This document shows, piece by piece, positions 1,358 to 23,031 of a stretch of 25,078 nucleotides of DNA. The stretch is from IMG/VR virus record IMGVR_UViG_3300010883_000424, positions 1 through 25,078 of that record, one strand, 5' to 3'. A model generated the notes under the pieces. It did no database searches and was not told the DNA's origin. It saw only the letters and a program-made list of their open reading frames with translations. The position numbers and the translations under genes are program-made. Every line of letters begins with the position of its first letter. The stretch's first letter is position 1. Origin of the DNA: a virus.

Positions 1358-1510
1358 ATGCCTATGCCGTTTATGTGCCACGAGTGTGATAAATACACAA
1401 GGAACAAAAACGGTATATGCAGCACCTGTTTAGATATGCTAGCACGACCAGCAGCACCAGCTAAACCAGAAAAAAAAGCTAGTGTCCCAAAGAAGGTTAA
1501 GGATGACTGA
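1358..1510 (+). CDS. 50-aa zinc-ribbon-like miniprotein
   Basis: ORF too short for usual callers. The product begins MPMPFMCHECDKYTRNKNG and carries two Cys-x-x-Cys pairs (C7/C10 and C21/C24) spaced as in a zinc ribbon. A proline/alanine/lysine-rich tail follows (about 30-50). It sits between two clear genes and its stop overlaps the next ATG by 8 bases (1503-1510), which supports it being real. An internal ATG two codons downstream is an alternative start. No specific function is recognised; nucleic-acid or protein contact through a zinc knuckle is a general expectation. It contains one TGCTAGCA site. Confidence 0.6.
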   Translation: MPMPFMCHECDKYTRNKNGICSTCLDMLARPAAPAKPEKKASVPKKVKDD

Positions 1511-1814
1511 ATTTCTAGAAGTATATTCAGAGGCGGGAATGATAGGGGTTGTGGGTGTTATGTTTTGTTTTATGGTATATCAAAATGCCAAAAGAGCCGA
1601 AGAACAAGGAAAGTCCATAAATGATTTACAGATTGAAAACAGGGGTCAATCAGAGACTCTTGAGAATACTGAAAGTATGATTATCAAATTAATTGAACGA
1701 TGGAACAAGTCGGATGATACTTCCCTTAGACATAGGGAAGATATTCTTCGTGAAATTTCAGACTTAGCTGAGAAAGTAAGCTACCTGTCTGGAAGAGTAA
1801 ATGGGAATAAATGA
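1503..1814 (+). CDS. Single-span membrane protein with coiled-coil domain (holin-like)
   Basis: 103 aa. I chose ATG 1503 over the in-frame upstream GTG 1482 because GAAGGTTAAGG lies just ahead of it. A hydrophobic helix (about residues 12-28, MIGVVGVMFCFMVY) is followed by a long charged coiled-coil region (30-98). Together with the next three small genes and the endolysin at 2331 it forms a likely lysis cassette, so a holin or spanin-type role is possible but unproven. The stop overlaps the next ATG (ATGA, 1811-1814). Confidence 0.7.
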   Translation: MTEFLEVYSEAGMIGVVGVMFCFMVYQNAKRAEEQGKSINDLQIENRGQSETLENTESMIIKLIERWNKSDDTSLRHREDILREISDLAEKVSYLSGRVNGNK

Positions 1815-1963
1815 TAATGGATAGTCTAAGGGTCACAGGTATAAGCACAAGTTTGGGGCTTGCATATTGGACAGACCTACTTTCCGGTGTTTTGATGTGT
1901 ATAATGTTTGCGGTACAGATTTACTATTTGTATCTAAAAACAAAAAAGATAAAGGAGTCATAA
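1811..1963 (+). CDS. 50-aa membrane protein in the lysis cassette
   Basis: Short ORF translationally coupled to the preceding gene (ATGA). The product has a hydrophobic segment of about 22 residues (roughly 21-42, containing LLSGVLMCIMFAVQIYYLY) and a basic C-terminal tail KTKKIKES. The AAAGGAG inside its last codons is the ribosome binding site of the next gene. The topology of one helix plus a positive tail fits small phage holins or antiholins. No sequence family is recognised. Confidence 0.6.
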   Translation: MIMDSLRVTGISTSLGLAYWTDLLSGVLMCIMFAVQIYYLYLKTKKIKES

Positions 1964-2330: not shown

Positions 2331-2816
2331 ATGAATCAGACGCAAATTAGACGAGTAATCCAAAAGGTCTTAAACAACTTAGGGTACGATTCAGAAGATG
2401 CCCTAGAAATGGTTTTCCTGACAGGGTTAGTCGAATCAAAATATAACTACTTAGAGCAGTTAGGTTCTGGACCAGCAAAGTCCTTTTTTCAAATAGAACC
2501 AAATACCTGCAAGGATATAATTGAAAACTATCTTTCCTACAAAATAACTACCCGTCAAAAAGTGACAGAAACAGCAAAGCTATATGATGGCTGGCATAAA
2601 GCTAGCACCGAACAATTAGCTTACCTGCTGGAAACAAATATCGCTTTTGCCATCTGTATGTGTAGGTTGCATTACAGGAGGGTCCCGACGGCTTTGCCGA
2701 AAAAAGGGGATGCTAGAGGGTTTGGAACATACTGGAAAAAATGGTTTAATACACATCTTGGGGCAGGAACCATTGAAAAATTCCTAGAAGCAGAGGGTAG
2801 ACGTAAAGACGAGTAA
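2331..2816 (+). CDS. Endolysin, lytic transglycosylase-like (SLT fold)
   Basis: 161-aa protein with the hallmarks of the SLT/goose-lysozyme-like family. A catalytic glutamate sits in LVESKY (E35), followed by the substrate-groove motif G-P-A-K-S-F-F-Q-I-E-P (47-57) and a helical C-terminal half with an RxHYRR stretch. Such enzymes cleave the MurNAc-GlcNAc bond of peptidoglycan, here to release progeny. There is no signal peptide, so export would depend on a holin among the small membrane proteins encoded just upstream. A GAG element sits 5 bases before the ATG. The 62-base gap before it (2269-2330) holds no obvious feature. Confidence 0.75.
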   Translation: MNQTQIRRVIQKVLNNLGYDSEDALEMVFLTGLVESKYNYLEQLGSGPAKSFFQIEPNTCKDIIENYLSYKITTRQKVTETAKLYDGWHKASTEQLAYLLETNIAFAICMCRLHYRRVPTALPKKGDARGFGTYWKKWFNTHLGAGTIEKFLEAEGRRKDE

Positions 2817-2823
2817 AATCAAA

Positions 2824-4302
2824 ATGCCTAAAAAAGATGACAAATTCGGTGGCAAAACAACTTGGACACAGGAACAACGGGACGTTGCTGAAGATTTAAT
2901 AGGAAAAAAACACTCGTATTCAGAAATAGCTCGTAGATTATGTGAATTATACCCTGAATACAACTTTACAGCCAACTCAGTTAGAAACCAAAAAAGGACA
3001 GGACGACTAGGTGTCAATCCAACCATTCCTCTTTCGGCTGACCGAGGCAGACACAGGAAATCAAAACCCAGACAGGAAAAAGAAGTTTTTACTGCTGAAC
3101 CAAACAAAAAACCCGATTTTGAACCCGGTCACGATTTTTCATCTTTAGGTAATTATGCAATATTAGACTATCGTGGAGAGCAAAACCCGTCATCCCTAGA
3201 AGAATTATTAACTGCTTGTGATGTAGATAGGTCTATTTGGCAAGTAGAACGCTACGTTGTAAATAAGTGGGAAGTAGCTATGAAGTTACAAGAGGCGATT
3301 GTTCACCGCCCATTGTTTCAAGTAAAGGCTTGGTTAGTGAGAGAAAAACCGATTGTTGTAGAGTTTCCGACAATTAAGCCAATAAACCCAATAAATGTAC
3401 CCTCTCCAAAACCCTTAAATATGAAAACCTATGGCAGCAGGAAAGATAAGCTAGCATTAATTATACCAGACGCACAGGTGGGATTTTCTAGGAATTTCCA
3501 AACGGGAGAACTAGACCCGTTTCACGACAGGAGAGCATTGGACTTATGCTTGCAAATGGCAGAAAAGCACCAGCCTGATGAAATCATCCTGCTGGGGGAT
3601 ATGCTAGACCTTCCAGAGTGGTCCGATAAGTTTATGATAAGCCCAGAGTTCTATTGGACAACTCAACCCGCAGTAAACGAACTCTATTGGTGGATAAAAG
3701 AACTAAGACAGCACACTAATAAAATGATATATATTGAGGGGAATCACGAGTTAAGAATGTCTAAGGCTGTTGTAAAAAATATTATCGCTGCGTACAATTT
3801 AAAGCCTGCTAACGAACCTAATAAAAATAGCCTCACAGTTCCTACTCTGCTAGCACTTGATGAACTGGGTGTCGAATATATGGGTCCATATCCAGATGGA
3901 GAATATTGGATTAACGACAACTTGAGAGTGTCTCACGGGCAAATAGCAAGGAAGGGAGGCGGAAAAACCGCTTCAGCAATCTTAGCAGACGCTAGGAACT
4001 CTGAGATTGTTGGACATATACACAGGCACGAAATGGCGCAGAAAACCGTTCATCCGAGAAAGGGCATTAAGACCTACGTTGCGTACTCTCCCGGAACGGT
4101 TGCTAGAATTGACGGGGTAGTCCCCGCATATCAAGCTAGAAACGATTGGCAACAAGGTATGGCTCTTGTCCATTTTGAAGATGATAATGGAAAATTTCAA
4201 ATAGTACCATACAATATTCACGAAGGCGAAACAATGGCTGATGGGGTTATTATGAAATATAGAAAGTCTATAGTCAATAAGCTAAAAAAGACAATAAAAT
4301 GA
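2824..4302 (+). CDS. HTH-containing calcineurin-like metallophosphoesterase
   Basis: 492 aa. Residues about 10-62 form a helix-turn-helix-like domain (WTQEQRDVAEDLI ... SEIARRLCEL ... SVRNQK) resembling phage terminase or transposase HTHs. Residues about 208-420 carry the metallophosphoesterase motifs in order: DAQ (D216; usually D-x-H), GDMLD (258-262), GNHE (306-309), SHG (370-372) and GHIH (397-400). The fold includes SbcD/Mre11 nucleases and phosphatases. With an N-terminal DNA-binding module, a nuclease or DNA-end-processing role is reasonable. The Q in place of the first metal-binding H is notable. Follows the endolysin by 7 bases and overlaps the next gene (ATGA). Confidence 0.8.
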   Translation: MPKKDDKFGGKTTWTQEQRDVAEDLIGKKHSYSEIARRLCELYPEYNFTANSVRNQKRTGRLGVNPTIPLSADRGRHRKSKPRQEKEVFTAEPNKKPDFEPGHDFSSLGNYAILDYRGEQNPSSLEELLTACDVDRSIWQVERYVVNKWEVAMKLQEAIVHRPLFQVKAWLVREKPIVVEFPTIKPINPINVPSPKPLNMKTYGSRKDKLALIIPDAQVGFSRNFQTGELDPFHDRRALDLCLQMAEKHQPDEIILLGDMLDLPEWSDKFMISPEFYWTTQPAVNELYWWIKELRQHTNKMIYIEGNHELRMSKAVVKNIIAAYNLKPANEPNKNSLTVPTLLALDELGVEYMGPYPDGEYWINDNLRVSHGQIARKGGGKTASAILADARNSEIVGHIHRHEMAQKTVHPRKGIKTYVAYSPGTVARIDGVVPAYQARNDWQQGMALVHFEDDNGKFQIVPYNIHEGETMADGVIMKYRKSIVNKLKKTIK

Positions 4303-4709
4303 GACATATGACAGAAGATGAAATGATTGAATCGCTAAACCAGACGACTGGTAGGGATGCTAGCAGAGTTGATTACGACGAATACTCAAGGTATGATGCA
4401 GAGGACAAAAACTACATATACGAGGCGAAAGACAGAAAAAAGCATTTTTTAAGGACGATGATTGAGGATAAAAAGTTTAAAGCAAATAACGATTGGGGAG
4501 ACCGTTTAGAAAAAGAATTTATTTATTTAGTCCACTCTAATGATAATATGTATATATTCAACGTCACCGAGCTTGTAGGTGAGGGATATAATTTTGGTTG
4601 GCACGAGAGACTATGTAAAAAAACAACCGATTTTGGTGAATCTAAGATGGAATTAAAGAAAGTCGGGTACATCCATCTAAATAAGGCGGTTCGAACATAT
4701 AAAACTTGA
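4299..4709 (+). CDS. Unrecognised protein, weak PD-(D/E)XK-like motif
   Basis: 136 aa, ATG overlapping the previous stop. A possible nuclease-like pattern is visible: D33 in the acidic RYDAED, then a hydrophobic strand ending in YEAKDRKK (E42-x-K44), as in the E-x-K of PD-(D/E)XK folds. Aromatic strands around 75-100 (FIYLVHS, MYIFNV, FGWHERL) could complete such a core. This is a motif-level suggestion only; no family was recognised. One TGCTAGCA site lies in its codons. A structural prediction would decide. Confidence 0.6.
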   Translation: MRHMTEDEMIESLNQTTGRDASRVDYDEYSRYDAEDKNYIYEAKDRKKHFLRTMIEDKKFKANNDWGDRLEKEFIYLVHSNDNMYIFNVTELVGEGYNFGWHERLCKKTTDFGESKMELKKVGYIHLNKAVRTYKT

Positions 4710-6022: not shown

Positions 6023-6952
6023 ATGCCTGTAAAGATACACAACAAAGAATATAAAACGGTTGCGGAGAGAATAGTTGAGTTCTATGCCAAATACGGAGGA
6101 AGCAACGAGACATCAATACATACTGAAATACTAAAAGACGAAGATAGCCTAGTACAAGTTAGGGCTACTATTTCAGTAAATATAGAAGACGTTCAAGTTC
6201 TGTATGGAACCGGACACGCTGAAGAAGACAGACGACAGGGAATGATTAATAAGACATCAGCCCTAGAGAACGCTGAAACATCCGCAATCGGAAGAGCATT
6301 AGCTAGTATTGGACTAGGCGGTGAAGAGTTTGCATCGGCAGATGAATTAGTTCAGGCTCTTGCTAACCAAAAAAGTACAGCCGCCAAGAAACCTAGCACC
6401 GCTGTCACGACGAACAGTTCAGCCAGCAGCGAGAAAAATGCTAGCACAATTAACTTCGGAAAACACAAAGGAAAACCATACAACAAGATTCCTATTCAAT
6501 ATCTAGAGTGGCTGACAGGGAGACCCGACACAGACCAAGAGACTATGGAACTTGCGAAGGCAGAAATCTCAGTAAGAAATTCAATAGGCATTGGGAATCT
6601 CACACCGCCTGATGATAAAGATGTCAAAGCCAACGATTCTTGGGAAGTGGATGAAAAAATCTTCAGCAAGGTTGCAAAGACAGAAGAAAAACCAAAAAGC
6701 CAAACACCAAAGACGATAGAAAAAAAACAACAAAGCGTCAATGAAATGGTTGCTAGCATAGGTAACGGAGTAGCTCCTGAGTCTCCGGTTATTTCTGAGT
6801 CTCCGGTTGCTGATACTCCTTTGTCTCTAGAAAGAAGAAGAAGAGATGTTGCCAATGAACTTACTATTCTATCTCAAGTCTTAGGAATGGAGAAGTTCCA
6901 AGAAATCAAGACTAGGGAAGTTGGAGCAAGGGATTCGCTCAATGCGAACTAG
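6023..6952 (+). CDS. Single-strand DNA annealing protein (ERF/Sak-type) with DUF3820-like motif
   Basis: 309 aa. Residues about 10-112 carry the ERF/RAD52-like core with E-N-A-E-T-S-A-I-G-R-A-L (82-93) and the following GLGG. A Thr/Ser/Ala linker leads to INFGKHKGKPYNKIP and YLEWL (about 143-164), a motif also found at the ends of phage exonuclease-type proteins (DUF3820). A low-complexity region follows and the end is unusual (see 6979-7083). The protein would anneal complementary single strands during phage recombination, working with the Gam-like neighbour. GGAG precedes the ATG, one base after the previous stop. Confidence 0.8.
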   Translation: MPVKIHNKEYKTVAERIVEFYAKYGGSNETSIHTEILKDEDSLVQVRATISVNIEDVQVLYGTGHAEEDRRQGMINKTSALENAETSAIGRALASIGLGGEEFASADELVQALANQKSTAAKKPSTAVTTNSSASSEKNASTINFGKHKGKPYNKIPIQYLEWLTGRPDTDQETMELAKAEISVRNSIGIGNLTPPDDKDVKANDSWEVDEKIFSKVAKTEEKPKSQTPKTIEKKQQSVNEMVASIGNGVAPESPVISESPVADTPLSLERRRRDVANELTILSQVLGMEKFQEIKTREVGARDSLNAN

Positions 6953-7353: not shown

Positions 7354-7674
7354 ATGACTCATCCATCAAAAAGGAAAGGTAATCGTGTTGAGAATCTAGT
7401 AAAGGATATCTTTATAGGTCACGGATTTAAGTCAATCCGTGCCTATGCTAGCAACGGTTTAGCTCTGGGGGAACACGAGGAGTGCGACCTAACTGCTGAA
7501 ATGTTTGGTCACAAATGGCGATTTCAAATAAAAGCTAGGAAGGTAATAGCCAAGTGGATTAAACCTAATATGGAAAACGTGGATGCTCAAATTATCAAGC
7601 AAGATAGGGAAGAGCCATTGATAGTAATGCCATTAAGCAGATTTATAGAGGAGTTGAGAAATGCCCGACAATAA
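7354..7674 (+). CDS. PD-(D/E)XK nuclease, Holliday-junction-resolvase-like
   Basis: 106 aa. N-terminal KRKGNRVENLVKDIF (G9-N10-R11-x-E13) and a following GF-x-S-I-R-A-Y-A-S match phage and archaeal Hjc-like resolvases. The expected metal-binding pattern is E13, D45 (EECDLTAE) and a final E/Q-x-K, here Q58-I59-K60 followed by AR. Q at that site deviates from the usual E. The family resolves branched DNA during recombination, fitting a place after Gam, annealing and HTH genes. The start is coupled to the previous stop (TGATATG) with no strong ribosome binding site, and the end overlaps the next gene by 14 bases. Confidence 0.65.
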   Translation: MTHPSKRKGNRVENLVKDIFIGHGFKSIRAYASNGLALGEHEECDLTAEMFGHKWRFQIKARKVIAKWIKPNMENVDAQIIKQDREEPLIVMPLSRFIEELRNARQ

Positions 7675-8530
7675 GCCCCCGGCTTTTATGTTTTATGCCG
7701 GAGATTTCTTATCGAGCATAGATGTTGCTTTTATGGATATGGAGTTGAGAGGTGTTTACATAACTCTGTTAGCATACTCTTGGCTAGAGAACGGGATACC
7801 AAATGAAGACAGGAAATTAAAAGTTATCTTACAATGTAGTGACGAGGACACTTACTCAAGGTATAAATCTGAGGTTATAGATGCTTGTTTTAAGCTAGAA
7901 AAAAATACTTGGAGACAACCAAGACAGGAAAGAGAAAGAGCCAAGCAACAAGAAAGAAAGGATGCTCACATTAAAGCCGGAAAAATGAGTCAAGATTTAA
8001 GGAGAGCAAGAGAAAATAAAAGGGGAAAAGGAGCATTATTGCGTGTGAGTAAAGGGAGCAACGCTCTAGAGTTGGAAAGAGAAGTAGAATTTGAAACTGA
8101 ATTTTGGAAAGCGTATCCTAGAAAAACAGGAAAGAAGAAAACAAAAGCACTATATAATAAAATAAGAAAAAGCACAAGCAAGGAAGACGTAATAAATGGA
8201 TTAAAAAACCACATAAAAGGTTGTTGGAGTGGGAAAGAAATTGAATTTATACCATATCCAATGACTTGGCTAAATGGGGAATGTTGGAATGATGATGCTA
8301 GCAATATATCTGGTGAGGTCACAAAGGTGATTAAGAGAACTTTTGTGAAGGTTTGCCCCGTCTGTGGAGCAACTAAGGATGGATGCGACAAGAACTCTGT
8401 CGATGTTTGCCGTAGGCACAAACCTAGCTTTGATATGTTTTCAGAGAATAAAGTGCTAATGGACGATGATTTACTAATGATTAATGGCATACGTTTAGAT
8501 TTAGGTTTGGAATTAGTAGGAGAAAAGTAA
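7661..8530 (+). CDS. Phage replication initiation-like protein (DUF1376 domain)
   Basis: 289 aa. The N-terminal ~80 residues match DUF1376: P-A-F-M-F-Y-A-G-D-F-L (7-17), ELRGVYITLLAYSW and a G-I-P segment. A basic helical linker (85-125) follows. The C-terminal part has the FWKAYPRKTGKKK and PYPMTWLNGECW motifs (149-161, 198-209) common in phage O-like and DnaD-like replication proteins. A probable zinc knuckle (C232, C235, C242, C250) lies near the end. It likely recruits the replication helicase to an origin; no helicase is encoded within the window. GAGGAG precedes the ATG. Confidence 0.7.
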   Translation: MPDNKPPAFMFYAGDFLSSIDVAFMDMELRGVYITLLAYSWLENGIPNEDRKLKVILQCSDEDTYSRYKSEVIDACFKLEKNTWRQPRQERERAKQQERKDAHIKAGKMSQDLRRARENKRGKGALLRVSKGSNALELEREVEFETEFWKAYPRKTGKKKTKALYNKIRKSTSKEDVINGLKNHIKGCWSGKEIEFIPYPMTWLNGECWNDDASNISGEVTKVIKRTFVKVCPVCGATKDGCDKNSVDVCRRHKPSFDMFSENKVLMDDDLLMINGIRLDLGLELVGEK

Positions 8531-8722: not shown

Positions 8723-9190
8723 ATGGCAACAAAAAAAGAAGTAACCGCCCTGAAAGAGAAATATTATGAGGGGAAGAAGGAAGTAAATCGCCTGAATGAG
8801 CAGTTAAATCATCTTGGTGGTCATTTAAAAAATGTAATTTTTCATATAGATGAAATATACGCTAAATTACTCGTTGAATCTGACGATGCAAAGAGGAACA
8901 GGAATTATAGTAAAAAAGACCTTATTCGCAAGATTAAAGGCATTGTAGACTATTCTATTAGATGGATTGGTGTACCAAAGAAACAAGTCTATCAATGGAA
9001 CCCATTGGATTTATATAAAAACTATGATTGGTGGGAAGAGAAAAAAGAAGACAGATATTTCGTAGGAAAAGAAATACTAGATTCAATATACCCAAATGAA
9101 AAAGAACTAAAAGAAATTTTAGACGGAAGCGGCATTAGTGAGGACGAGCTAAAGACACCGGACTTGGCAGATGCTAGCACGAAAAAATGA
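8723..9190 (+). CDS. Unrecognised coiled-coil protein flanked by structured RNA
   Basis: 155 aa, ATG with GGAGAG 5 bases upstream. Residues 3-60 are a charged coiled coil (KKEVTALKEKYYEGKKEVNR). The middle is aromatic and basic (SIRWIGVPKKQVYQW, KNYDWWEEKKED) and the tail acidic (about 128-150). No family is recognised. It is the last gene of the left plus-strand operon and is bracketed by candidate structured RNAs (8545-8700 and 9204-9386), which suggests a link such as an RNA-binding partner or autoregulation. That link is positional inference only. One TGCTAGCA site lies near its 3' end. Confidence 0.65.
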   Translation: MATKKEVTALKEKYYEGKKEVNRLNEQLNHLGGHLKNVIFHIDEIYAKLLVESDDAKRNRNYSKKDLIRKIKGIVDYSIRWIGVPKKQVYQWNPLDLYKNYDWWEEKKEDRYFVGKEILDSIYPNEKELKEILDGSGISEDELKTPDLADASTKK

Positions 9191-9459: not shown

Positions 9460-9597
9460 CTAACCACTTCTTTTTATTGCTTGAATTGTAACCGAAACCA
9501 CAACTGCCATTATCCCTATGGCTATTGACCAAATTAGGAACCCTACTCCCAATGCTAGCACTTGAACTATCCAACCTGCTACGTCTAGAATTATCAT
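9460..9597 (-). CDS. 45-aa hydrophobic membrane protein
   Basis: Last gene of the minus operon. Its ATG overlaps the preceding TAA (TAATG). The product starts MIILDVAGWIVQVLALGVGF and is hydrophobic almost throughout (about residues 8-40), ending in KRSG: one long or two short transmembrane helices. A different frame over the same bases is also open but is polar and serine-rich with no ribosome binding site, so I prefer this one. Function unknown; small toxins or membrane modulators of early phage operons have this form. A TGCTAGCA site falls in its codons. Confidence 0.6.
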   Translation of the reverse strand: MIILDVAGWIVQVLALGVGFLIWSIAIGIMAVVVSVTIQAIKRSG

Positions 9598-10456: not shown

Positions 10457-10978
10457 CTACGCCTCTGCTCCACTAGAGAACCCTGTGGTGATGTCTCCAT
10501 CACCGAAGTCATTGATGAATTTTTTCATATCTGACTCGTCAATATCAGCATTTACACCCATACCAATTCCATCTTCTGTCTCGAAGATATCAACACCGTC
10601 GGGAATTATGTCAGCACTCTTACACATAGATGTCAAAGAAAGAGACATCCCTAGAACCGTTCCGAGGCTCCTGTCGTGTTGTTCGTTGTTGAAGTATGCT
10701 AGCATCATCATAGCGTCCTTTCTGCTTAGACACTCTTTACTTACTAATGCTCTGATACAATTACACAAACTATCCATTATGTCTCCAATAATTGCCGACA
10801 TATAAGCATTCATTTTCCCATCACCTTTTATATATTTTTTCATCTCGTCACTATACTCTTCAAAATCTTCATAGCTACCGAAGATATCTCTTGGATTTGG
10901 TGCATCTGATTCGATGGTTCTTCTACGGGCATCATTTAGTTTATCTTGTGTCAGGTATTTTGATTTTGCTTTGGGCAT
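10457..10978 (-). CDS. Unrecognised 173-aa protein
   Basis: ATG with AGGAGA right ahead (TAGGAGAGAATG, where the TAG is the previous stop). The product has a basic N-terminus (MPKAKSKYLTQDKLNDARRR), an alpha-helical middle (MNAYMSAIIGDIMDSLCNCI and KDAMMMLAYFNN) and an acidic C-terminus with ETEDGIGMGVNADIDESDM. No family or catalytic motif is recognised. Gene order (directly after the 149-aa protein) suggests co-translation. One TGCTAGCA site is in its codons. Confidence 0.7.
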   Translation of the reverse strand: MPKAKSKYLTQDKLNDARRRTIESDAPNPRDIFGSYEDFEEYSDEMKKYIKGDGKMNAYMSAIIGDIMDSLCNCIRALVSKECLSRKDAMMMLAYFNNEQHDRSLGTVLGMSLSLTSMCKSADIIPDGVDIFETEDGIGMGVNADIDESDMKKFINDFGDGDITTGFSSGAEA

Positions 10979-11612: not shown

Positions 11613-11723
11613 TTACTCAAGGTTTTGGAATGGGTTAAACGGTGCTAGCACGTTGATTTTAGGAGGGGCGGGAACACCACGAGATTCCTCAAGTGATGTT
11701 CCCTTGTCGAGAGAGAGCGACAT
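11613..11723 (-). CDS. 36-aa proline-containing miniprotein
   Basis: ATG 5 bases after the upstream TAG, with AAAGAGAT as a weak ribosome binding site. The product starts MSLSLDKGTSLEESRGVPAP and ends in an aromatic/proline segment (VLAPFNPFQNLE). It carries a TGCTAGCA site in codons for Val-Leu-Ala. It is the end of the upper half of the operon, before the promoter-like gap. It may be a short functional peptide or only a fortuitous ORF; no family recognised. Confidence 0.4.
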   Translation of the reverse strand: MSLSLDKGTSLEESRGVPAPPKINVLAPFNPFQNLE

Positions 11724-11883: not shown

Positions 11884-12149
11884 ACTATTCTCCTTATGTT
11901 AGATACTATTTCTTCAACATTTATTTCATCACAATGCTCTTTGCAATTAGAACATATATCAGAAAAAGATATTAAAGCACCGCAACAATCGCTTTCCTTA
12001 CTCCCCGGATAAGAATCCACCGACTCGTCATCTACCTTGACTTGGTAGGGGAACGCTAGCACTCCGTCACCTTCTGCCTCTAGAAGTACGTCAACTATTT
12101 GGTCTTTTTGAGATTCGTTTTCAACGGTTATTGTTATTATTTTAGACAT
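11880..12149 (-). CDS. Small phage zinc-binding protein (CCGA...CSNCKEHC type)
   Basis: 89 aa, ATG with AAGGAGA upstream, overlapping the end of the 63-aa gene. A beta-strand N-terminus (MSKIITITVENE) is followed by a Cys cluster: C55-C56, C66, C69 and C73 (SDCCGALI, ICSNCKEHC). The spacing suggests a zinc knuckle of a kind I believe recurs in small phage proteins annotated hypothetical. Function unknown. GCTAGC occurs once in its codons. Confidence 0.7.
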   Translation of the reverse strand: MSKIITITVENESQKDQIVDVLLEAEGDGVLAFPYQVKVDDESVDSYPGSKESDCCGALISFSDICSNCKEHCDEINVEEIVSNIRRIV

Positions 12150-12343: not shown

Positions 12344-13234
12344 TTATTTGTAATGACCCTGTGAGTATTCCATTGTCTCTGCTAGCTTTCGTATTTCCCT
12401 GTCCAAAGTATCTACGGTAGCATCGACACTCTTGGTGTCTTTTTGTTCAACGACATAGAACACATTTGCTCTTTCTTTAGCATCTTCAGACATTTCTTTC
12501 TGATATCCCATACCGTGGTCAAATCCGAAGACACCTCTCTTGATTTGGAACAATAGGTCTCGAAGTATTCCGTTGGTTGCTATCGACATAACCCTCTGCA
12601 AATCCAACACTTCGTGACTTCTCTTTACCGGGAAGAGGACAACAAACTCCCTTACTCCGGGGAGAGAACCTTCATACTGACAACAATAAGTAGCGTGAAT
12701 CTCGACGGCATTCCCCATCCTTGTAAGAATGTCTGCTAGCACCGAAGCCGTAGCCCCTAGTCTTGCAAATTCCATCTCATCGTTGAAGTGAGCAAGGGAG
12801 AAATTGATACCTATTCTCACATTTCTCCTCTTGTTGTCTCTCACCATTTTGTCCCAATAGTCGTCCCTATTGACCATAACCTTGTCGATGTTAAGTTCAT
12901 CTCCATCGTCACTACATCTCCTAACTCTCTTCGATGATAGTCCTTGCCCTAAGTAAGAAGTAATGTCGAGTTGTTGTTCTACTTCTTCTCGATATTTTTC
13001 AAAGAAGTCCCTTACTTTCTTACTGCTCTTGCCGATAGTAAGATTCTCGACAAGTTGCTCCCTTGTCTTAACCGACCCATAAGTCCAATCCTTGTCGGTT
13101 ATTTTGAAGACATCGTTAGTCAGACAAGCCTCGATATAGTCTTCTGCTGAATCAAATTCAAGACAGACGATTTCCTTCTCGGCACTATAGTCATATGATA
13201 CATCGTTCTTTTCTGATAGAATATAATCAGACAT
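12344..13234 (-). CDS. Degenerate vWA-like partner of the MoxR ATPase
   Basis: 296 aa, ATG with GAGGAG 7 bases upstream, 14 bases after the AAA+ gene. Residues about 139-185 (VRIGINFS, then FARLGATASVLADILTRMG and AVEIHATY) follow the first beta strand, first helix and second strand of a von Willebrand A domain. However, the metal-binding DxSxS is replaced by NFSLA, so the MIDAS is probably lost. This region also recalls phage proteins grouped as DUF7192. MoxR-type ATPases nearly always sit beside vWA proteins, as CobS does with CobT. The pair is expected to form a metal-chelatase or chaperone-like complex. Fold inferred from pattern, not alignment. Confidence 0.6.
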   Translation of the reverse strand: MSDYILSEKNDVSYDYSAEKEIVCLEFDSAEDYIEACLTNDVFKITDKDWTYGSVKTREQLVENLTIGKSSKKVRDFFEKYREEVEQQLDITSYLGQGLSSKRVRRCSDDGDELNIDKVMVNRDDYWDKMVRDNKRRNVRIGINFSLAHFNDEMEFARLGATASVLADILTRMGNAVEIHATYCCQYEGSLPGVREFVVLFPVKRSHEVLDLQRVMSIATNGILRDLLFQIKRGVFGFDHGMGYQKEMSEDAKERANVFYVVEQKDTKSVDATVDTLDREIRKLAETMEYSQGHYK

Positions 13235-13248: not shown

Positions 13249-14568
13249 TTAAAGTGTTATTGGTTGATTGACATTGACACCATCTAAGCTAGATACTCTC
13301 GGTTCTGCTCTCTTGTAGTTGGTGGGAAACTTCTCCATCATCTCTTCAAGATTGATTTTCGATTTCTCTTCGTCTGTCCATTGAGCCGTCAAGTCAGCTA
13401 ATGCGTAGAAGATGCTAGCTTTTGATAAGCCGCCCTCTATCTTCTTGCCCTTTCCTAGTGTCATCGGAGTTACCGATTTTTCTGCCACTACACCATTGAC
13501 GGCTTGGTGAATCATTTTTGCCGAAGTGGAAAAAGCACGGGTAGAGATGTTGTATCTTAGCTTTTGGTCTCTAATCCGAGTCCTTAGTTCGAAGAGAGCA
13601 TCTGCTAGCTCTTTATATTCCCCGACTATAGCTTTCTCGATTTCATTGTCGTAATCTATCGATATTACTGCTCCGGTGAATCTATCAAGAGTTGCCATAT
13701 CTTGTTGGTTCCTTCCAACGTATTGGTGACTATTTCCATACCCTGTGCTATTATCGATGGCAATAAACGAGAAGTCATCGTGACGAAATCGATACGGATT
13801 CTCTGGGTCATTTGGAGTGAACATCAATCCTTGACCATCTAGCATAGAGTTATGAATGAGAGACATATTGGGGTCAAATCCATTGAACTCGTCGGCTACA
13901 ATAAAGCCACCTTCCGAGAATGGTTTGACATATTGACCCTCAATATACCGACCATCAAATGTCGATTTCCCTAATAGTTGAGCCTCACTAACTCCGGCAG
14001 TACCGACGGCATAAGTATATTTAAACTTATCATCTTCGTCCCAATCTTTAGCCTTGGCAATTACCTTAAATAGCATCTCGGCTATTGTCGATTTCCCTGT
14101 TCCTCTTTCACCGACCATAAAAAGCTTGCCGTGAGTTATCAGTTTATCGAGACAATCTTGGTATTGAAAGTGGATTAAATCTCCATCGACTTGGTCAAAA
14201 ATTACCTTATCCTTGACGGTGATTTGGACAGGTCTCGTTACTTCCTCGACTCTCTCCTCAATCATCTCCTCGATTTTCTTCCCATACTTGTCCTCCATCT
14301 TCTCGAGAACCTTTTCCGACGAGTAGTCTCCAATCACTTTCTCCATATCCGACAGACTTTTCTGCCCTGTAGTACCGTTGTTGTCCGACGATGAACTATT
14401 CCCACTACTTTGGTCGGAAGTATCTTTACCGTCGTTACTTGGTGGATTCCAACTTCCGTCTAGAAAGCCGTCTAATTCGTGTCTTCTAGCAAAAGCCGTC
14501 CAACTTGAACTGACACCGTCAGCTTCACATTTTCTTCTAGCGGATTTTCTCATTTCTGAAACATTCAT
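13249..14568 (-). CDS. MoxR/CobS-type AAA+ ATPase
   Basis: 439 aa from ATG 14568, chosen for the strong AAGGAGA 6 bases ahead; an upstream in-frame ATG (14673) has no site and lies in a hairpin. An N-terminal helical segment (1-38) with SSWTAFARRHELDGFL resembles phage CobS N-termini. An acidic/serine linker (45-70) leads to the AAA+ module: Walker A GERGTGKST (153-161), the long MoxR-type insertion around 195-220, Walker B GFIVADEF (221-228), sensor-1 N273 and arginine finger in LDRF (R296). ATP-dependent remodelling with the neighbouring vWA-like protein is the expected role; the substrate is unknown. Confidence 0.8.
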   Translation of the reverse strand: MNVSEMRKSARRKCEADGVSSSWTAFARRHELDGFLDGSWNPPSNDGKDTSDQSSGNSSSSDNNGTTGQKSLSDMEKVIGDYSSEKVLEKMEDKYGKKIEEMIEERVEEVTRPVQITVKDKVIFDQVDGDLIHFQYQDCLDKLITHGKLFMVGERGTGKSTIAEMLFKVIAKAKDWDEDDKFKYTYAVGTAGVSEAQLLGKSTFDGRYIEGQYVKPFSEGGFIVADEFNGFDPNMSLIHNSMLDGQGLMFTPNDPENPYRFRHDDFSFIAIDNSTGYGNSHQYVGRNQQDMATLDRFTGAVISIDYDNEIEKAIVGEYKELADALFELRTRIRDQKLRYNISTRAFSTSAKMIHQAVNGVVAEKSVTPMTLGKGKKIEGGLSKASIFYALADLTAQWTDEEKSKINLEEMMEKFPTNYKRAEPRVSSLDGVNVNQPITL

Positions 14569-14579
14569 TTTGTTCTCCT

Positions 14580-14706
14580 TGCCTCTCTCGGCAGTTTTGG
14601 TTTTTGGCTCAAATTCCGAGCCGTTAGTATTTCTATAAATGATAGCATCTTCAGTTCCTTCAGATGCTATCATTTATAAATACAAAGCCGTCAGTTCTTC
14701 CGACGG
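14580..14706 (-). promoter_or_regulatory. Leader of four hairpins, three exposing GGA
   Basis: In minus-strand RNA, between the stop at 14719 and the ATPase ATG, four stems follow one another: CCGTC/GACGG (14688-14706, loop GGAAGAACT); a perfect 17-bp stem (14634-14650 with 14662-14678, loop GAAGGAACTGA); GGCTC/GAGCC (14606-14622, loop GGAATTT); and TGCC/GGCA (14580-14593) just before the Shine-Dalgarno. The first three loops contain GGA, and the first two share a near-identical loop (GAAG-(G)-AACT). This resembles CsrA/RsmA-type targets. A 27-codon ORF (14565-14648) with its own GAAGGA in the second loop overlaps the ATPase start. Confidence 0.5.
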
Positions 14707-16199: not shown

Positions 16200-16216
16200 T
16201 TCGAATAGTATTTCGA

Positions 16217-16605: not shown

Positions 16606-16608
16606 TAC

Positions 16609-17307: not shown

Positions 17308-17469
17308 ATGTCTGAACAATTAAAATTCTTTTATTTAAGTATTCTGGAACAGCAAAACTTCCCCGGATGGGAACTTTACGTTTTTTTCACTACATCGCTT
17401 TTAGTTAGTATTATTTTTAGATTAAATAGAATCGAGAGGAATCAAGATGGCAAAGATACTCAAGAATAA
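17308..17469 (+). CDS. 53-aa single-span membrane protein
   Basis: ATG 17308 chosen because AGAGAGG sits 7 bases upstream; the frame is open further upstream but runs through the inverted repeat without a site. The product begins MSEQLKFFYLSILEQQNFPG, then a transmembrane helix (about 21-40, containing LYVFFTTSLLVSIIF) and a charged tail (RLNRIERNQDGKDTQE). First gene of the late operon, overlapping the terminase small subunit by 23 bases. Function unknown. Confidence 0.6.
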   Translation: MSEQLKFFYLSILEQQNFPGWELYVFFTTSLLVSIIFRLNRIERNQDGKDTQE

Positions 17470-18196: not shown

Positions 18197-18407
18197 GAAA
18201 ACTACCAATACGGATTTCCATACCTATGAGATAGTCCATACGGCAGATATAGATGAAAAAAAGCTAGCTACGTTGGTCCTAAACGACAAGGAGTACCAAG
18301 TTGACGGGACAGTAGCAAAGATGTTTATTACTATGTGCGACGAGATAGACATTTATTACAGCCTATTTAATGAATTAAAAGACAAGAGTGGTTATGGAGA
18401 ATCTTGA
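18171..18407 (+). CDS. Small protein between terminase subunits, unrecognised
   Basis: 78 aa from a TTG start inside the end of the TerS-like gene; no upstream ATG exists in frame and the ribosome binding site is weak, so coupling is assumed. The product has beta-like segments (PKQQVLVKKTTNTDFHTYEI, KLATLVLNDKEYQVDG) and a C-terminal helix (MCDEIDIYYSLFNELKDK). It overlaps the TerL start by 14 bases. It may be an accessory packaging protein; no family recognised. Confidence 0.55.
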   Translation: MPKQQVLVKKTTNTDFHTYEIVHTADIDEKKLATLVLNDKEYQVDGTVAKMFITMCDEIDIYYSLFNELKDKSGYGES

Positions 18408-20034
18408 TGCCAAATTAAACTTACTTAGCGGGAAAGAGAAAGTTGATATGCTAAGGGCTATGTATTTGGACATATTTTTTTTCGCTGAAGTATTATTTGG
18501 TGATGCAGAGAACTCGATGCACTACCATTGCCGTGCTGAGTCCCCCCATTTTCATAAAGAGATAGCAGAAAACCTTTTAAGGTTGAATGTTGGCGAGAAA
18601 ATTGCGATAGTTGCACCTAGGGACCACGCAAAAAGCACATTTATTAACTTAATATACCCTTTACATAGGATTTTATTCGGTGAAGAGCGTTTTATATTGC
18701 TTATATCTGAGTCTGAGATGCAATCTAAGTACAATTTAGAAAGTATTGGCAATGAGGTCGAGTTTAACCCAAAAATAAAATTTTTCTTTGGAAATAGGAT
18801 GGGGTCAACGTGGGGAAAAGAGGAGAAAGAGTTCGTAGGAGCATATGCAACAGACGGTTCTATAAAAATAAAGACAAAAGTGCTTGTTCGTGGTACTGGT
18901 CAAAAAGTCAGGGGCTTAAAGTATGGAGCATATCGACCAACTCTTACTATTATTGATGACGGAGAGGGAGAGGCAAACACAGCAACACCAGTTTTAAGGG
19001 ATAAATTCAAAAGATGGCTAAATGCTGCCGTAATTCCGGGTTCTGGGGACGCTAAAATGATTTTTATTGGAACAATAGTAGACGAAGAGAGTTATTTGAA
19101 CAGAATTGCGGGTCCAAAAGCCTATGATAGGGACGGTAACTATAAAATAAAGTCGTGGAAGTCGCTATTTTACCAAGCAATCATACAAGATACCCCAAAA
19201 GGGATTTTTGTCAGTTCGGGTAAGGAAAAAAAGGACAAAAACGGTACTCCGGCTGTTCTTTGGCACGATAGAAGACCTTATAAGTGGCTAGCAGCAGAAA
19301 GAGATAGATTGAAGTCTGAGGGAGATATATCGTATTTCTACCAAGAGTACCAGAATATACCAATGGATGATTCTTTTAGGATATTTAAAAAAGATGACAT
19401 TCAGTATTGGGACGGAAGGTATTTAAGGCAAGATAACTACAATTTTATAATTAATAAGGGAGTTCAGGTCCCAGTTAATATATTTATGGGCGTTGACCCG
19501 GCAAGTAGTGAAAATATTAAAGCAGACTATACGGTTGCGATGGTTGTAGCCGTTGATGATAAGTATAATATATATGTGGTAGATATGTTTAGAGGTCAAG
19601 TAGCTCCTATGGATGGAGTGACCGCAATCATTAATTTAGCAGACACATATCATCCTAAAGACATTAGAGTAGAAAAGACGGGTCACGCTATGTTATCGGA
19701 CTATCTAATGAGATTAGGTAAGGAAACTGGAAGATTTTTACCAATTACCCCAAAAGATGCTATTAAGTCTAAGTTTTTCAGGATTAAAGAGATGCAACCA
19801 TTATTTGCTAGTAAAGCTATCTTTCTAAAAGATAGCCAATATGAACTTGAATCTGAGCTGCTAGCATTTAGAGAACACGGAACATTTAAAAAAGACACAC
19901 TTGATGCTTTAAGATGGGCAACTGAAGATATATACCCAAATAGGCTCCAGAGAGGCGAGAAAGGCATATGGGAAACTTCTATGCCAAAAACCCTTGCTTG
20001 TGACTGGGAAACGGGTGAAATTTATAGTGCATAA
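18394..20034 (+). CDS. terL: Terminase large subunit
   Basis: 546 aa from ATG 18394 (GTG two codons earlier is possible; AAGAG lies ahead). The ATPase domain has a Walker A-like APRDHAKST (residues 74-82 of this start) and Walker B LTIIDDGEGE (184-193, D-D/E catalytic pair), followed by a coupling motif region with MIFIGT. The C-terminal RNase H-like nuclease has its first aspartate in MGVDPASS, a middle acidic residue in DIRVEKTG and a last aspartate in DTLDALRWATED. It pumps DNA into the prohead and cuts concatemers. Codon use is AT-ending, unlike the early minus genes. Confidence 0.92.
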   Translation: MENLDAKLNLLSGKEKVDMLRAMYLDIFFFAEVLFGDAENSMHYHCRAESPHFHKEIAENLLRLNVGEKIAIVAPRDHAKSTFINLIYPLHRILFGEERFILLISESEMQSKYNLESIGNEVEFNPKIKFFFGNRMGSTWGKEEKEFVGAYATDGSIKIKTKVLVRGTGQKVRGLKYGAYRPTLTIIDDGEGEANTATPVLRDKFKRWLNAAVIPGSGDAKMIFIGTIVDEESYLNRIAGPKAYDRDGNYKIKSWKSLFYQAIIQDTPKGIFVSSGKEKKDKNGTPAVLWHDRRPYKWLAAERDRLKSEGDISYFYQEYQNIPMDDSFRIFKKDDIQYWDGRYLRQDNYNFIINKGVQVPVNIFMGVDPASSENIKADYTVAMVVAVDDKYNIYVVDMFRGQVAPMDGVTAIINLADTYHPKDIRVEKTGHAMLSDYLMRLGKETGRFLPITPKDAIKSKFFRIKEMQPLFASKAIFLKDSQYELESELLAFREHGTFKKDTLDALRWATEDIYPNRLQRGEKGIWETSMPKTLACDWETGEIYSA

Positions 20035-20062: not shown

Positions 20063-22099
20063 TTGGCAATAAAGCAACCATACGGAAAATCCGGTCCATA
20101 CCAGAAGATAGAAGACAGTTACGGTCTTAATGACCTCAACTCTGATGAAATTCGGGATGAGTGGTTTCGCTATGAAAAAGCTAACTCTGAGTGGAGAGTC
20201 CAAATTTCCGATGATGAATCTTTTTATTTAGGGAATCAACTCACAGAAAAACAGAAAGAATATCTTCAAAGCGTGGGGCAACCACCGGAGTGCAATAATA
20301 AGATTAGACCAGCAGTTGAGCAGGTGCTAGCAAATGTAGCGTCAGCCTCTCCAACTTGGTCTGTGCAGCCAGAAGGAAAAACAGATTCAGAGATAAGTTT
20401 TATATTCTCTCAATTAATGGATAGAATATGGTACGATTGCGACGGGGACCATAGTTTTAGAAAAATGGTCCGAGATTTCTTAGTAAAGGGAATAACATAC
20501 GCATATGTTTACCCTGACTGGCAAGGAGATGGAGGATTAGGGAGCATAAAATTAAAGAAGATGGCTCCAGAATCTATATTCGTAGACCCAAATTCCATAT
20601 TACCAGACTTTTCTGATGCTAGCAGCATAATATATAGTGATATTATGACCAAAAAGCAGGCTAAGACTTTATATCCGTCACTAGAAAAAGTAATTGACGA
20701 TGCTATGCCAGAACAATGGGGCAATGAGAAGTCTAGTGGTAACTTTAATAGGGATTATGTTATTTCTAGGTCAGATAGTTATAATGAGCAAGAAGACGAG
20801 AGAGTAAGAAAGTTTGTAAGATGGTCTAAGGTTTCATTACCAAAAATGCGAGTTACGGAGATGACTACCGGATATACTAGTATTTTAGAGAAAGAACAAT
20901 GGGATGAGATGAAAGAAAGCCCTGATTACGCACAATTTGTAGAAGCGGGTGAAATAACAGCTCAGGAAATTTTTCAAACAGTAATTAGAGAGACTTGTAT
21001 GTTTGGGGACGTTATGGGCTATGATTATATATTGCCACTTACTGAATACCCAATTATTCCAGCCTGCAATGAACACGCAGCAAATCCATACCCTAGCGGA
21101 GATGTTCGTCACGCAAAGACTCCTCAGCGTATGTTAAATAGAACTGAGGCATTATTAATTGCACACACAAATGCAACGGCTAATTTTAAATTAATTTACG
21201 AAGATGGTGCAATAGACCCAGAAGAACTGGGAAAATGGTCTATTCCCAATGCTGTTATAAGAGCGAATCCCGGTGCTATCTCAGGTGGCAAAATAAAAGA
21301 ATATACACCAAACTCTTTAAGTTCTCAGCTATATAACGAGAAAAGTAGGTATGAAGTAGATATAGAGCAGGTTTTTGGCTCCTATAAGTTTTCTCAAGGA
21401 AACCCAGACGCTAGTCCGGGTACGGTAGGTGAGGCAGGTCTTATTGACGAGGCTGTAGCTAAAAAGCAGAATTGGAAGATATTACCAGTATATGATATGC
21501 TAACTAGGGCTGCTAGCATATGCGTACAATGGATACCTCACATCTATGACCAGCAAAGGGTGTTAAGGTTTGTTAATCCGCAAGGTGACGATAAGGAAGT
21601 TCAATTAAATTTACCAGTTGAAGATAAGACTGGTGCAGTAAACAAGATGTATGATATGACTACCGCAAAAGCAGACATTAGAGCAGTAGTAGGTAGCACA
21701 AGGGCTAAAAACCCATTAGCAGATTTAAACAGGGACATTGGATTAATGCAAGCAGGTATTTATGATAAAACCCAAGTTATTATGAATATGCAATCTGATA
21801 TTGACAAAGGGGCATTACTAGAGAGGCAGGGCGAAATTTCGCAATTATCTCAACAAGTTCAGCAATTAACAGAGCAAGTTAAAACATTATCCGGTGATAT
21901 ACAGACAAGAGAACGAGAAGTTTTCCACCAGAAGATGAGAGCTGAAGTTGCAGAGGCAACTAAACCAATAGCTGGAGCAGTTGCAAATATAAAAGCGAGA
22001 ACAAAAATTGAAGAAGCTCGGCAGAAGGACAGTTCATCCAAAGCTGAGGAACAGGTAAACTCAATGATAGCTGCTAATTCTCAAAACGGAATGGCATAA
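20063..22099 (+). CDS. Portal protein
   Basis: 678 aa from a TTG start with AAAGGATA about 11 bases ahead; no ATG fits. The product has the P22-type portal character: N-terminal helices with DESFYLGNQLTEKQKEYL, a core with IRPAVEQVLANV and MAPESIFVDPNS, and a C-terminal helical/coiled-coil tail (about 590-660, Gln-rich QLSQQVQQLTEQVKTL). Portals form the dodecameric DNA gate. Position directly between TerL and the scaffold supports the call. Four TGCTAGCA or GCTAGC-type sites fall in this and adjacent late genes. Confidence 0.85.
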   Translation: MAIKQPYGKSGPYQKIEDSYGLNDLNSDEIRDEWFRYEKANSEWRVQISDDESFYLGNQLTEKQKEYLQSVGQPPECNNKIRPAVEQVLANVASASPTWSVQPEGKTDSEISFIFSQLMDRIWYDCDGDHSFRKMVRDFLVKGITYAYVYPDWQGDGGLGSIKLKKMAPESIFVDPNSILPDFSDASSIIYSDIMTKKQAKTLYPSLEKVIDDAMPEQWGNEKSSGNFNRDYVISRSDSYNEQEDERVRKFVRWSKVSLPKMRVTEMTTGYTSILEKEQWDEMKESPDYAQFVEAGEITAQEIFQTVIRETCMFGDVMGYDYILPLTEYPIIPACNEHAANPYPSGDVRHAKTPQRMLNRTEALLIAHTNATANFKLIYEDGAIDPEELGKWSIPNAVIRANPGAISGGKIKEYTPNSLSSQLYNEKSRYEVDIEQVFGSYKFSQGNPDASPGTVGEAGLIDEAVAKKQNWKILPVYDMLTRAASICVQWIPHIYDQQRVLRFVNPQGDDKEVQLNLPVEDKTGAVNKMYDMTTAKADIRAVVGSTRAKNPLADLNRDIGLMQAGIYDKTQVIMNMQSDIDKGALLERQGEISQLSQQVQQLTEQVKTLSGDIQTREREVFHQKMRAEVAEATKPIAGAVANIKARTKIEEARQKDSSSKAEEQVNSMIAANSQNGMA

Positions 22100-22119
22100 C
22101 TAATAAGCAAGGAGCATCT

Positions 22120-23031
22120 GTGGAAAACACAACAGAAGAACAAGTCAATGAGCAAGTAGAAGACACCCAAGAAGATGGTAACTTTAATCTCGTAGATGAA
22201 CTAGTTTCATTTAATAAAGGAGAAGAAAGCCCAGAAGAAGGTGCTGTAACAAACGAGGCGGAATCTGACAATAATGAAAAGGTTGAGGAATCAGAATCCC
22301 AACAGGAAAGTACCGAACAATGGTTAATAGATAACAAGTTTAAAGACAATGATGATGGAAGGCAGAAACTAGCCGATTCATACAAGAGTCTGCAAAGCGA
22401 ATACGATAAAATGCGTAATAGTCCCGAATTACCACAGGACGCTCAAGACGCTATCAAGTTTGCTGAGTGGGTTGCTAATAATGATGATGCTAGAACAGCC
22501 TTGGAAGGACTTGTTAACTCACCGGAGCAAAGTATTGTAGAAATCCCAGAGGATTTTGACCAATTAGATATATATACAGAAGGCACTTCGTCTAATGATT
22601 GGTATAAGGCAACTCAGAATCAGCAAAGGACTGAAATGAAAGACCAGATACTATCGGAAGTAAAGAGTGAATTTCAACAACGAGATAATAAAGTTCAGGA
22701 AGAAGCAGAAGCTCGTAATATGTACGCCTATTTACAGGCAGAACATAATATGGACGAAGCTGAAGTAACTGATTATTTAAGCTTTATTAAGGAGGAAGAT
22801 AATTTTTCCCCCCAAAATCTTGTTTCAATGTATAGAACGTCTAAGGGAACTCAGCCACGAACTAAAACAACTACAAAACATTCGGAGAGTAACCCTTCTC
22901 GGAAGGAACTACCTGCTGGAGTAAATGCAGCAGTCGGTGGTGGTTCAAACCCCCCTGCTAGCAACAATCCAGTAGATGACCTAATGAAGAGTTTAATGGG
23001 AAACTCAAAGAGGAATGTTTTTCAAGACTAA
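22120..23031 (+). CDS. Capsid assembly scaffolding protein
   Basis: 303 aa from a GTG start with AAGGAG 6 bases upstream. Highly acidic N-terminal third (NTTEEQVNEQVEDTQEDGNF and following Glu/Asp-rich stretches), a helical middle (about 85-235) and a basic C-terminal tail with a Pro/Gly/Asn linker (about 250-290). This charge layout, length and location between portal and major capsid are typical of phage scaffolds, whose basic end binds the capsid protein. Homology to a named family is not evident. Confidence 0.8.
   Translation: MENTTEEQVNEQVEDTQEDGNFNLVDELVSFNKGEESPEEGAVTNEAESDNNEKVEESESQQESTEQWLIDNKFKDNDDGRQKLADSYKSLQSEYDKMRNSPELPQDAQDAIKFAEWVANNDDARTALEGLVNSPEQSIVEIPEDFDQLDIYTEGTSSNDWYKATQNQQRTEMKDQILSEVKSEFQQRDNKVQEEAEARNMYAYLQAEHNMDEAEVTDYLSFIKEEDNFSPQNLVSMYRTSKGTQPRTKTTTKHSESNPSRKELPAGVNAAVGGGSNPPASNNPVDDLMKSLMGNSKRNVFQD

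Follow-up and report, generated by a model that had tools for sequence, protein, structure and literature searches.

Maintenance of an exact iterated palindrome, TGCTAGCA, in two phage families, and its opposite state in their relatives

Short exact palindromes that recur far above expectation are known from cyanobacteria, as the highly iterated palindrome HIP1 and its alternates (GCGATCGC and others), with about one core per kb and with one-off variants enriched at the first and last base (Elhai 2015, PMC4390886). The purpose of HIP-type sites in cyanobacteria is still debated. Here we describe a site of similar form, the 8-bp palindrome TGCTAGCA with its inner GCTAGC core, in a phage. The site is scattered over a linear IMG/VR virus record of 25,078 b from a tailed phage (IMGVR_UViG_3300010883_000424; the whole stretch is called the window below), which may be a partial genome.

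Phages have iterated sites of their own. Cluster O mycobacteriophages are described as carrying more than 30 copies of a 17-bp dyad repeat with no clear orientation, made of two 7-bp arms and a 3-bp spacer and often intergenic or near gene starts (PMC4351075). Stoperators of Cluster A phages are described as asymmetric 13-mers, oriented with transcription, found at promoters and in short intergenic gaps and bound by the phage repressor (PMC9283540). The window site resembles the former in being one dyad-symmetric sequence present in many copies across a phage genome, and the latter in the wide dispersal of a short site. It differs from the Cluster O repeats in being an ungapped 8-mer, with neither 7-bp invariant arms nor a 3-bp spacer, in lying mostly in coding DNA, in taking opposite states in relatives and in having a second enriched family. 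It differs from stoperators in being a perfect palindrome, with 15 of the 17 window sites in predicted coding sequences (CDSs). Restriction-site avoidance is a third point of reference: non-temperate phages are reported to lose Type II restriction sites entirely (PMC6286503, PMC4687349). The window phage fits this description in having no GATC, CATG, GGCC, CGCG or CCWGG, the restriction systems themselves being inferred. What sets it apart is that TGCTAGCA/GCTAGC is accumulated, not avoided. Palindrome avoidance is known in phages; accumulating and holding a palindrome is the opposite and demands a reason. Among the open-licence papers listed in a literature search, none was seen to describe GCTAGC or TGCTAGCA as an iterated site of a phage.

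The window has 17 copies of TGCTAGCA and 25 of GCTAGC, exactly the numbers that an earlier note on this DNA had counted by eye. An order-1 Markov model, the kind of test that note had called for, predicts 0.27 (z-score 32) and 3.0, respectively, and gives TGCTAGCA the highest z-score among the 8-mers present in the window. Simulated chains of order 2, 3 and 4 (60 runs each) contained 0.45, 2.25 and 4.07 copies on average and at most 2, 6 and 9, the order-4 chain partly absorbing the motif itself. When the predicted CDSs of the window were shuffled synonymously 300 times, 0.73 +/- 0.81 copies were found (maximum 4) against 15 observed. Chance and codon usage as the cause are ruled out by these counts. 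The positions in the window are as follows.

1437..1444, TGCTAGCA copy 1, intergenic
3848..3855, TGCTAGCA copy 2, in a CDS
4358..4365, TGCTAGCA copy 3, in a CDS
6439..6446, TGCTAGCA copy 4, in a CDS
6751..6758, TGCTAGCA copy 5, in a CDS
7446..7453, TGCTAGCA copy 6, in a CDS
8296..8303, TGCTAGCA copy 7, in a CDS
9172..9179, TGCTAGCA copy 8, in a CDS
9553..9560, TGCTAGCA copy 9, intergenic
10697..10704, TGCTAGCA copy 10, in a minus-strand CDS
11643..11650, TGCTAGCA copy 11, in a short predicted CDS
12734..12741, TGCTAGCA copy 12, in a minus-strand CDS
19859..19866, TGCTAGCA copy 13, in the gene for the terminase large subunit (TerL); of 51 TerL genes aligned, 6 share this column, and these are all six rows from the clade of the window
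20325..20332, TGCTAGCA copy 14, in the portal gene
20617..20624, TGCTAGCA copy 15, in the portal gene
21511..21518, TGCTAGCA copy 16, in the portal gene; not preserved in the relative G004
22956..22963, TGCTAGCA copy 17, in the CDS at 22120-23031
2601..2606, GCTAGC core without the T/A flanks
3450..3455, GCTAGC core without the T/A flanks
12055..12060, GCTAGC core without the T/A flanks
12381..12386, GCTAGC core without the T/A flanks
13414..13419, GCTAGC core without the T/A flanks
13604..13609, GCTAGC core without the T/A flanks
18263..18268, GCTAGC core without the T/A flanks
19287..19292, GCTAGC core without the T/A flanks, in the TerL gene

Searching IMG/VR with the terminase gave 57 related loci, one of which lies in G005 (46,328 b), a record that is 99.9% identical across the window and extends beyond it. 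The enrichment that the earlier note had expected of the rest of the genome is present there, with 24 copies of TGCTAGCA against 0.64 expected, and the relative G004 has 38 against 0.67. Eight whole records of the family, of 36-46 kb, were analysed; they may be incomplete genomes. They carry 39-56 GCTAGC where 6.5-7.7 are expected, or one core per about 0.65-1.16 kb; within the window's clade the density is one site per 1.2-1.9 kb. Relative to the synonymous null, the excess of sites is 6.2-8.2x in early genes and 2.9-6.1x in late genes, early exceeding late in all six records compared. The excess also survives a codon null that forbids avoided palindromes. With GATC, CATG, GGCC, CGCG and CCWGG forbidden, the complete non-overlapping open reading frames (ORFs) of the window have 13 TGCTAGCA against 0.45 (maximum 2 in 60); under a null of this kind G004 has 20 against 1.1, G005 19 against 1.0 and G010 18 against 1.5. 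Compensation for the purging of other palindromes is thereby ruled out. Neither codon-aware null accounts for TGCTAGCA, an outcome on which the earlier note had staked its claim.

Both in the window's clade and in a second family described below, conservation of the exact 8-mer far exceeds that of the neighbouring DNA. Expectations here come from neighbouring in-phase 8-mers. Between G005 and G004, at 74% identity, 9 of 11 alignable TGCTAGCA are kept exactly where 1.0 is expected (0 of 200,000 simulations), and in the reverse direction 9 of 15 against 1.8. Over both directions this makes 18 of 26; the corresponding figures are 2 of 25 one-mismatch words, 4 of 67 palindromes of other kinds and 11% of all 8-mers. 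Two further pairs preserve their sites, G010-L050 (10 of 11 against 4.2) and G004-L006 (7 of 11 against 2.6). One TGCTAGCA column in TerL is common to 20 of the 51 aligned genes, in distant clades; the protein has a conserved alanine-serine (A-S) pair at this place, and the sharing may owe something to protein conservation. The window itself reads TGCTAGTA there. Exact-site conservation and the excess over codon-aware nulls together support selection or maintenance at the DNA level.

As the earlier note had stated for the reading frames, the 15 genic window sites are read either as A-S (10 sites) or as leucine-alanine (5 sites); none is in the phase that would read TAG, the meaning of the phases having been confirmed on the TerL site. 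Among the 147 sites of the eight records, 128 lie in predicted CDSs, 7-10% of the DNA being non-CDS. G004 has the most sites outside CDSs (8 of 38), and all genic sites of these records fall within the two TAG-avoiding frames. No strong preference outside the 8-mer was seen at 38 G004, 24 G005 and 22 G010 sites, although C seldom adjoins those of G010 (2 of 44 halves); a strong longer consensus around TGCTAGCA was rejected on these flanks. The wider family shares the GCTAGC core, flanked predominantly by T/A in the window's clade and by A, C or T elsewhere. In all six records examined for variants, the one-mismatch word most enriched over expectation keeps the core, that is, it differs at the first or last base, with the caveat that TGCTAGAA is also up 3-6x in four of the six (G004-G007) and TGATAGCA is raised in G004 and G005. 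These variants, and the density of roughly one core per kb, uphold the likeness to HIP1 that had been proposed.

Spacing has no detectable regularity of the sort that might be expected of a packaging or nucleoid ruler: sites in the window, G004, G005 and G010 fit uniform placement, as does GCTAGC in G040 of the second family, and those of G011 are more clustered. A stretch of the window was said to lack the palindrome and to have hairpins on TGCTAGAA/TTCTAGCA arms instead. The GCTAGC-free stretch is real, with corrected limits of 13,610-18,262, and the gap in TGCTAGCA is wider, 12,742-19,858; the gap is not significant, the coefficient of variation of the spacing (1.19) being at the 92nd percentile of uniform placement. 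Two strong hairpins on TGCTAGAA do lie in the gap, and a third stretch folded there proved unremarkable (z -1.4). The words TGCTAGAA/TTCTAGCA do occur within the gap hairpins, and outside the gap too (797, 4101, 12187, 22488). The two hairpins are possibly transcript-processing, pause or termination elements.

15616-15639, intergenic hairpin with TGCTAGAA/TTCTAGCA-like arms in a minus-strand gene cluster, z -7.2 as RNA
16175-16198, intergenic hairpin with TGCTAGAA/TTCTAGCA-like arms in the same minus-strand gene cluster, z -4.6 as RNA

Relatives of the window phage can be in the opposite state. Most of the longer wider-family records are GCTAGC-rich, one subclade being weakly enriched. A supported sister clade (L015, L016, L026, L027) has no CTAG at all, where 18-42 are expected per locus; two longer records have 0 against 64 expected in each. 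Classified by our thresholds, 8 of the 51 terminase rows are TGCTAGCA-rich, 21 are rich in GCTAGC, 4 lack CTAG and 18 are neutral. In 12 of the 14 records that bear CTAG, GCTAGC shows the highest enrichment of any 6-bp palindrome; none of the others is raised consistently.

The same phages have lost other palindromes wholesale. GATC is missing from 54 of the 57 loci and is present in 4, 1 and 1 copies in the other three. Observed over expected counts in the window are 0/99 for GATC, 0/77 for CATG, 0/38 for GGCC, 0/22 for CGCG and 0/26 for CCWGG; G004 is additionally without AGCT (0/204) and GCGC (0/46) and retains CGCG. Each phage (the window, G004-G012, G054, G055) has its own set of 4-6-bp palindromes wholly lost, drawn from CATG, GGCC, AGCT, GCGC, CGCG, CCGG, CCWGG and GCNGC, with GATC lost nearly throughout.

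A patterned viral scan led to a second enriched family. Its member G040 (35.2 kb, 54.6% G+C) has 85 GCTAGC against 6.7 expected and 28 TGCTAGCA against 0.37; the relative G1405 has 95 GCTAGC against 7.0, and L288, another relative, 18 against 1.1. Sites are again preserved, TGCTAGCA being kept at 10 of 12 aligned sites between G040 and L282, a stretch of G1405, where 2.9 are expected. G1406 and G1407, many of whose proteins are 65-83% identical to those of G040, have only 6 and 9 GCTAGC in 40 kb, and in the stretches compared the aligned G040 sites are present at 0 of 16 and 0 of 14 positions. L285 and L286, with about 1 GCTAGC expected, have 3 and 2, and CTAG is missing from the 5.3 kb of L287, where 12 are expected. 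Since G040 and G1405 are enriched and G1406 and G1407 normal, enrichment is a state that close relatives can gain or lose. Conversion of GCCAGC by a single C-to-T change was rejected as the route: of 52 comparisons of individual sites between G040 and five relatives without clear enrichment, 35 show differences at two or more bases and 11 match GCCAGC or its complement. The avoided palindromes change along with the state. CCWGG stands at 1/80 and 1/84 (observed/expected) in the enriched G040 and G1405 and at 206/112 and 145/82 in G1406 and G1407, and the enriched pair misses more 6-bp palindromes than the other two.

The two families have no detectable similarity in virion proteins. Profile search of G040 against the window family recovers an AAA ATPase (E 4e-24) and a weak exonuclease-type match only; matches to the Pfam family DUF7192 occur in both. 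The ATPase and its DUF7192-like neighbour are conserved across the window family.

13249..14673, minus strand, CobS/MoxR-type AAA_5 ATPase; no other protein links the window so strongly to the second GCTAGC-rich family
12344..13234, minus strand, DUF7192-like partner of the ATPase; the Pfam match is under the cut-off in the window protein

The predicted structure of the partner (predicted local distance difference test score, pLDDT, 73.6) has as its best structural match, a weak one, the VWA domain of NorD, of the NorQ-NorD system (E 4e-4, TM-score as low as 0.26). The two proteins look like a MoxR-VWA type pair.

Further viral carriers were sought by five scans for close TGCTAGCA triplets, the first of which gave 95 stretches, 80 of them among the matches listed. 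Of 101 viral loci measured, L237 (in G040) and L250 are the only ones with at least 6 separate GCTAGC clusters and at least 3x the expectation; most others are local or tandem arrays. L250 (6 kb) has 7 GCTAGC, all of them TGCTAGCA, against 1.1, with GGCC at 0/8.7 and GCGC at 0/7.0. G049 (67 kb; L298-L301), a milder case, has 64 GCTAGC against 19.1 (3.3x), of which a single tandem array at the end accounts for six, and its locus L102 has 2.6x the expectation; GCGC is at 34/352 in G049, and 19 6-bp palindromes expected at least 6 times are absent. Single weak protein matches are the only link of L250 and G049 to the two families. These cases suggest a frequent association between a dispersed excess of GCTAGC and heavy loss of palindromes. 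Of the local arrays, one arrangement, three TGCTAGCA within 64 bp, recurs in many viral contigs near 49% G+C (L081, L084, L085, L087, L096 and similar); it looks like one conserved element, perhaps an operator. Tandem arrays based on TGCTAGCA occur in L113 and L111 (27-bp period) and in L092 (17-bp period).

In sum, the exact palindrome is under DNA-level selection or maintenance in two phage families and is in the opposite state in relatives. What acts on it is less certain. We tentatively favour, at somewhat less than an even chance, a HIP-like site selected at the DNA level through a sequence-specific, host-strain-linked factor that acts on GCTAGC. Each site would give a small benefit by being recognised by such a DNA-acting factor, and the density of sites would count rather than their exact positions; some pairs of relatives keep sites only near background, so sites turn over at held density in some lineages. 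The factor would come from the host strain or be linked to it, for three reasons: the state flips between close relatives, in the second family it coincides with a changed set of avoided palindromes, and the enriched phages share few recognisable genes. By analogy alone, the likeliest factor would be a DNA methylation system of the host, HIP-type but directed at a GCTAGC core, making TGCTAGCA/GCTAGC a possible methylation target, as had been suggested for it; such marking would help the infecting genome through mismatch repair, licensing or protection. A more specific proposal, that phages pressed by restriction delete restriction palindromes while accumulating GCTAGC as a mark that would make their DNA acceptable to, or shielded by, a methylation or repair system specific to the host strain, gaining it with the system and erasing it, as far as genomes devoid of CTAG, without the system or where the system is hostile, strikes us as doubtful.

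Several observations weigh against the host-linked reading. Some pairs keep their sites poorly: 3 of 15 TGCTAGCA against 2.0 from G010 to G012; 3 of 14 GCTAGC against 2.3 from G006 to G007, and 3 of 16 against 3.2 in reverse; and 5 of 9 GCTAGC against 3.0, with 0 of 2 TGCTAGCA, from G040 to L288. Neutral rows make up 18 of the 51 in terminase; several are short contigs, and two longer neutral records have GCTAGC at 12 against 4.5 and 9 against 3.8. G054 and G055, though heavily purged, are without GCTAGC; enrichment does not, then, follow from purging alone. In the second family, enriched G040 and G1405 share an early module that is absent from G1406 and largely absent from G1407. L250, G040 and G049 are selected cases, having been found by their TGCTAGCA triplets. 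The CTAG-free clade has divergent copies of the ATPase and DUF7192-like protein, which makes that pair a mere lead, a correlation.

The search for a host and for an enzyme adds to these points. Because the 8-mer alone is too short for a scan of a whole collection, three spaced copies of TGCTAGCA were used as the pattern. Among 84,980 species genomes, 58 stretches from 32 of them matched, mostly in Planctomycetota and as local clusters rather than as a genome-wide signature; L176, L179, L222, L227 and other planctomycete loci are such local clusters, without genome-wide excess. The 31 of these 32 genomes that were counted, which may not include the host, are all below the phage density, the densest having 158 copies in 1.5 Mb. 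So are 1,343 genomes sampled from four classes (395 from that of Flagellimonas, 369 from that of Alteromonas, 242 from that of Leptolyngbyaceae, and 337 from an alphaproteobacterial class), the densest by eye having 84 copies in 1.4 Mb. In 11 dense genomes that were checked the excess is at most twofold, the expectation for each being estimated on 10-40 kb of its sequence. At one site per 1.5 kb, a genome of 3 Mb would yield about 1.6 matches, so weaker-enriched hosts would escape the scan. Pfam matches to methyltransferase families (E<=0.001) were absent from the proteins scanned (50 of G005, 39 of 56 of G004, 31 of 33 of G040 and 32 of 56 of G010 and G007), scans that took part of the ORFs in most records and that unrecognised enzymes would escape. 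As in a HIP, the palindrome is strongly over-represented across the genome (17 against 0.27 in the window, 24 against 0.64 in G005 and 38 against 0.67 in G004) and, subject to the TGCTAGAA and TGATAGCA caveat, the most enriched one-mismatch word is a first- or last-base variant in six of six records. Cyanobacterial HIP1, however, is a feature of chromosomes, whereas here the carrier is a phage, the core is another one and the state switches among close relatives; no comparable motif density was found among the 242 genomes of a cyanobacterial class or the 1,343 overall, and a cognate methyltransferase, which would be expected in the host, was not seen in the phage proteins scanned. In form and statistics the site behaves like a HIP; for want of the enzyme and of chromosomal occurrence, both of which were tested, we do not file it as one.

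The main rival to a host-linked factor is an early protein encoded by the phage that binds TGCTAGCA/GCTAGC as a regulator or as a nucleoid-like, replication or packaging protein, in the manner of the L5 repressor at stoperators. It predicts that enrichment tracks an early gene module and not the host, and because enrichment in the second family does coincide with the early module of G040 and G1405, it stays a contender. The CobS/MoxR ATPase and DUF7192 in both enriched families, and the greater excess in early than in late genes in all six records, point the same way. Yet the ATPase and the weak exonuclease-type match are all that G040 shares with the window family by profile search, the CTAG-free clade retains a divergent ATPase and partner, and an ungapped 8-mer without strong flanks, mostly in coding DNA, is short for the site of a dimeric repressor; on balance we think this explanation rather unlikely. 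With the present records, the changed restriction landscape and the changed early genes are inseparable as correlates. Alternatively, the phages may passively copy a host signature, by amelioration or by a repair drive of the kind proposed for HIP1, with no benefit to themselves. The form of the palindrome, its core density and its first- and last-base variants are as this would have them, and a repair drive could also slow the loss of sites. No bacterial genome of comparable density was met, however, among the 31 counted or the 1,343 of the four classes, a test of limited power for moderately enriched hosts; copying by amelioration, which the earlier note had entertained, thus found no support in genomes among which the host is perhaps not included, and we regard it as improbable.

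A role like that of Chi is slimmer still. Protection of this type is established for other octamers, and the motif would protect linear phage DNA from a host recombination nuclease, or recruit one, acting in both directions because it is a palindrome. An exact octamer, scattered and mostly coding, would suit such a role. Chi is, however, an asymmetric octamer, over-represented in the host chromosome and recognised by RecBCD/AddAB, and to our knowledge the known Chi sites are all asymmetric; switching between close relatives is unlike the species-wide use of Chi, and the Mu Gam-like protein of the window phage could make the protection redundant. Least credible, and in our view very nearly dismissed, is the idea that the sites arise as a side effect of codon usage, of amino-acid content or of the avoidance of restriction sites. 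Heavy purging of other palindromes could in principle inflate the remainder, but the palindrome-forbidding codon null fails to reproduce the counts (13 against 0.45 in the window and 20 against 1.1 in G004), GCTAGC leads the 6-bp palindromes in 12 of the 14 records with CTAG, and the purged G054 and G055 do not have it.

Megablast of the window against 50,697 phage records found none similar; among the matches listed, the terminase is at most 28.6% identical (30 of 213 records), the portal at most 23.2% (8 matches listed) and the capsid protein at most 25.5% (3 matches listed). Its recognisable virion and packaging genes are the following.

18388-20034, terminase large subunit
20063-22099, P22-like portal
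23045-24538, SU10-type capsid protein

The phage also encodes a Mu Gam-like protein, the CobS/MoxR-type AAA ATPase and others; no tRNA was found in the eight whole family records. An early protein of 106 amino acids (window 7354-7674) is present in all eight of the whole GCTAGC-rich records of the family. Its sequence by eye hints at a small PD-(D/E)XK-type nuclease, and two scanned members of the protein family match PDDEXK_15.

That apparently unrelated viruses show the same accumulation points to a partner that recognises DNA. The two-state behaviour, seen in two phage families, makes HIP-type sites testable in small genomes.

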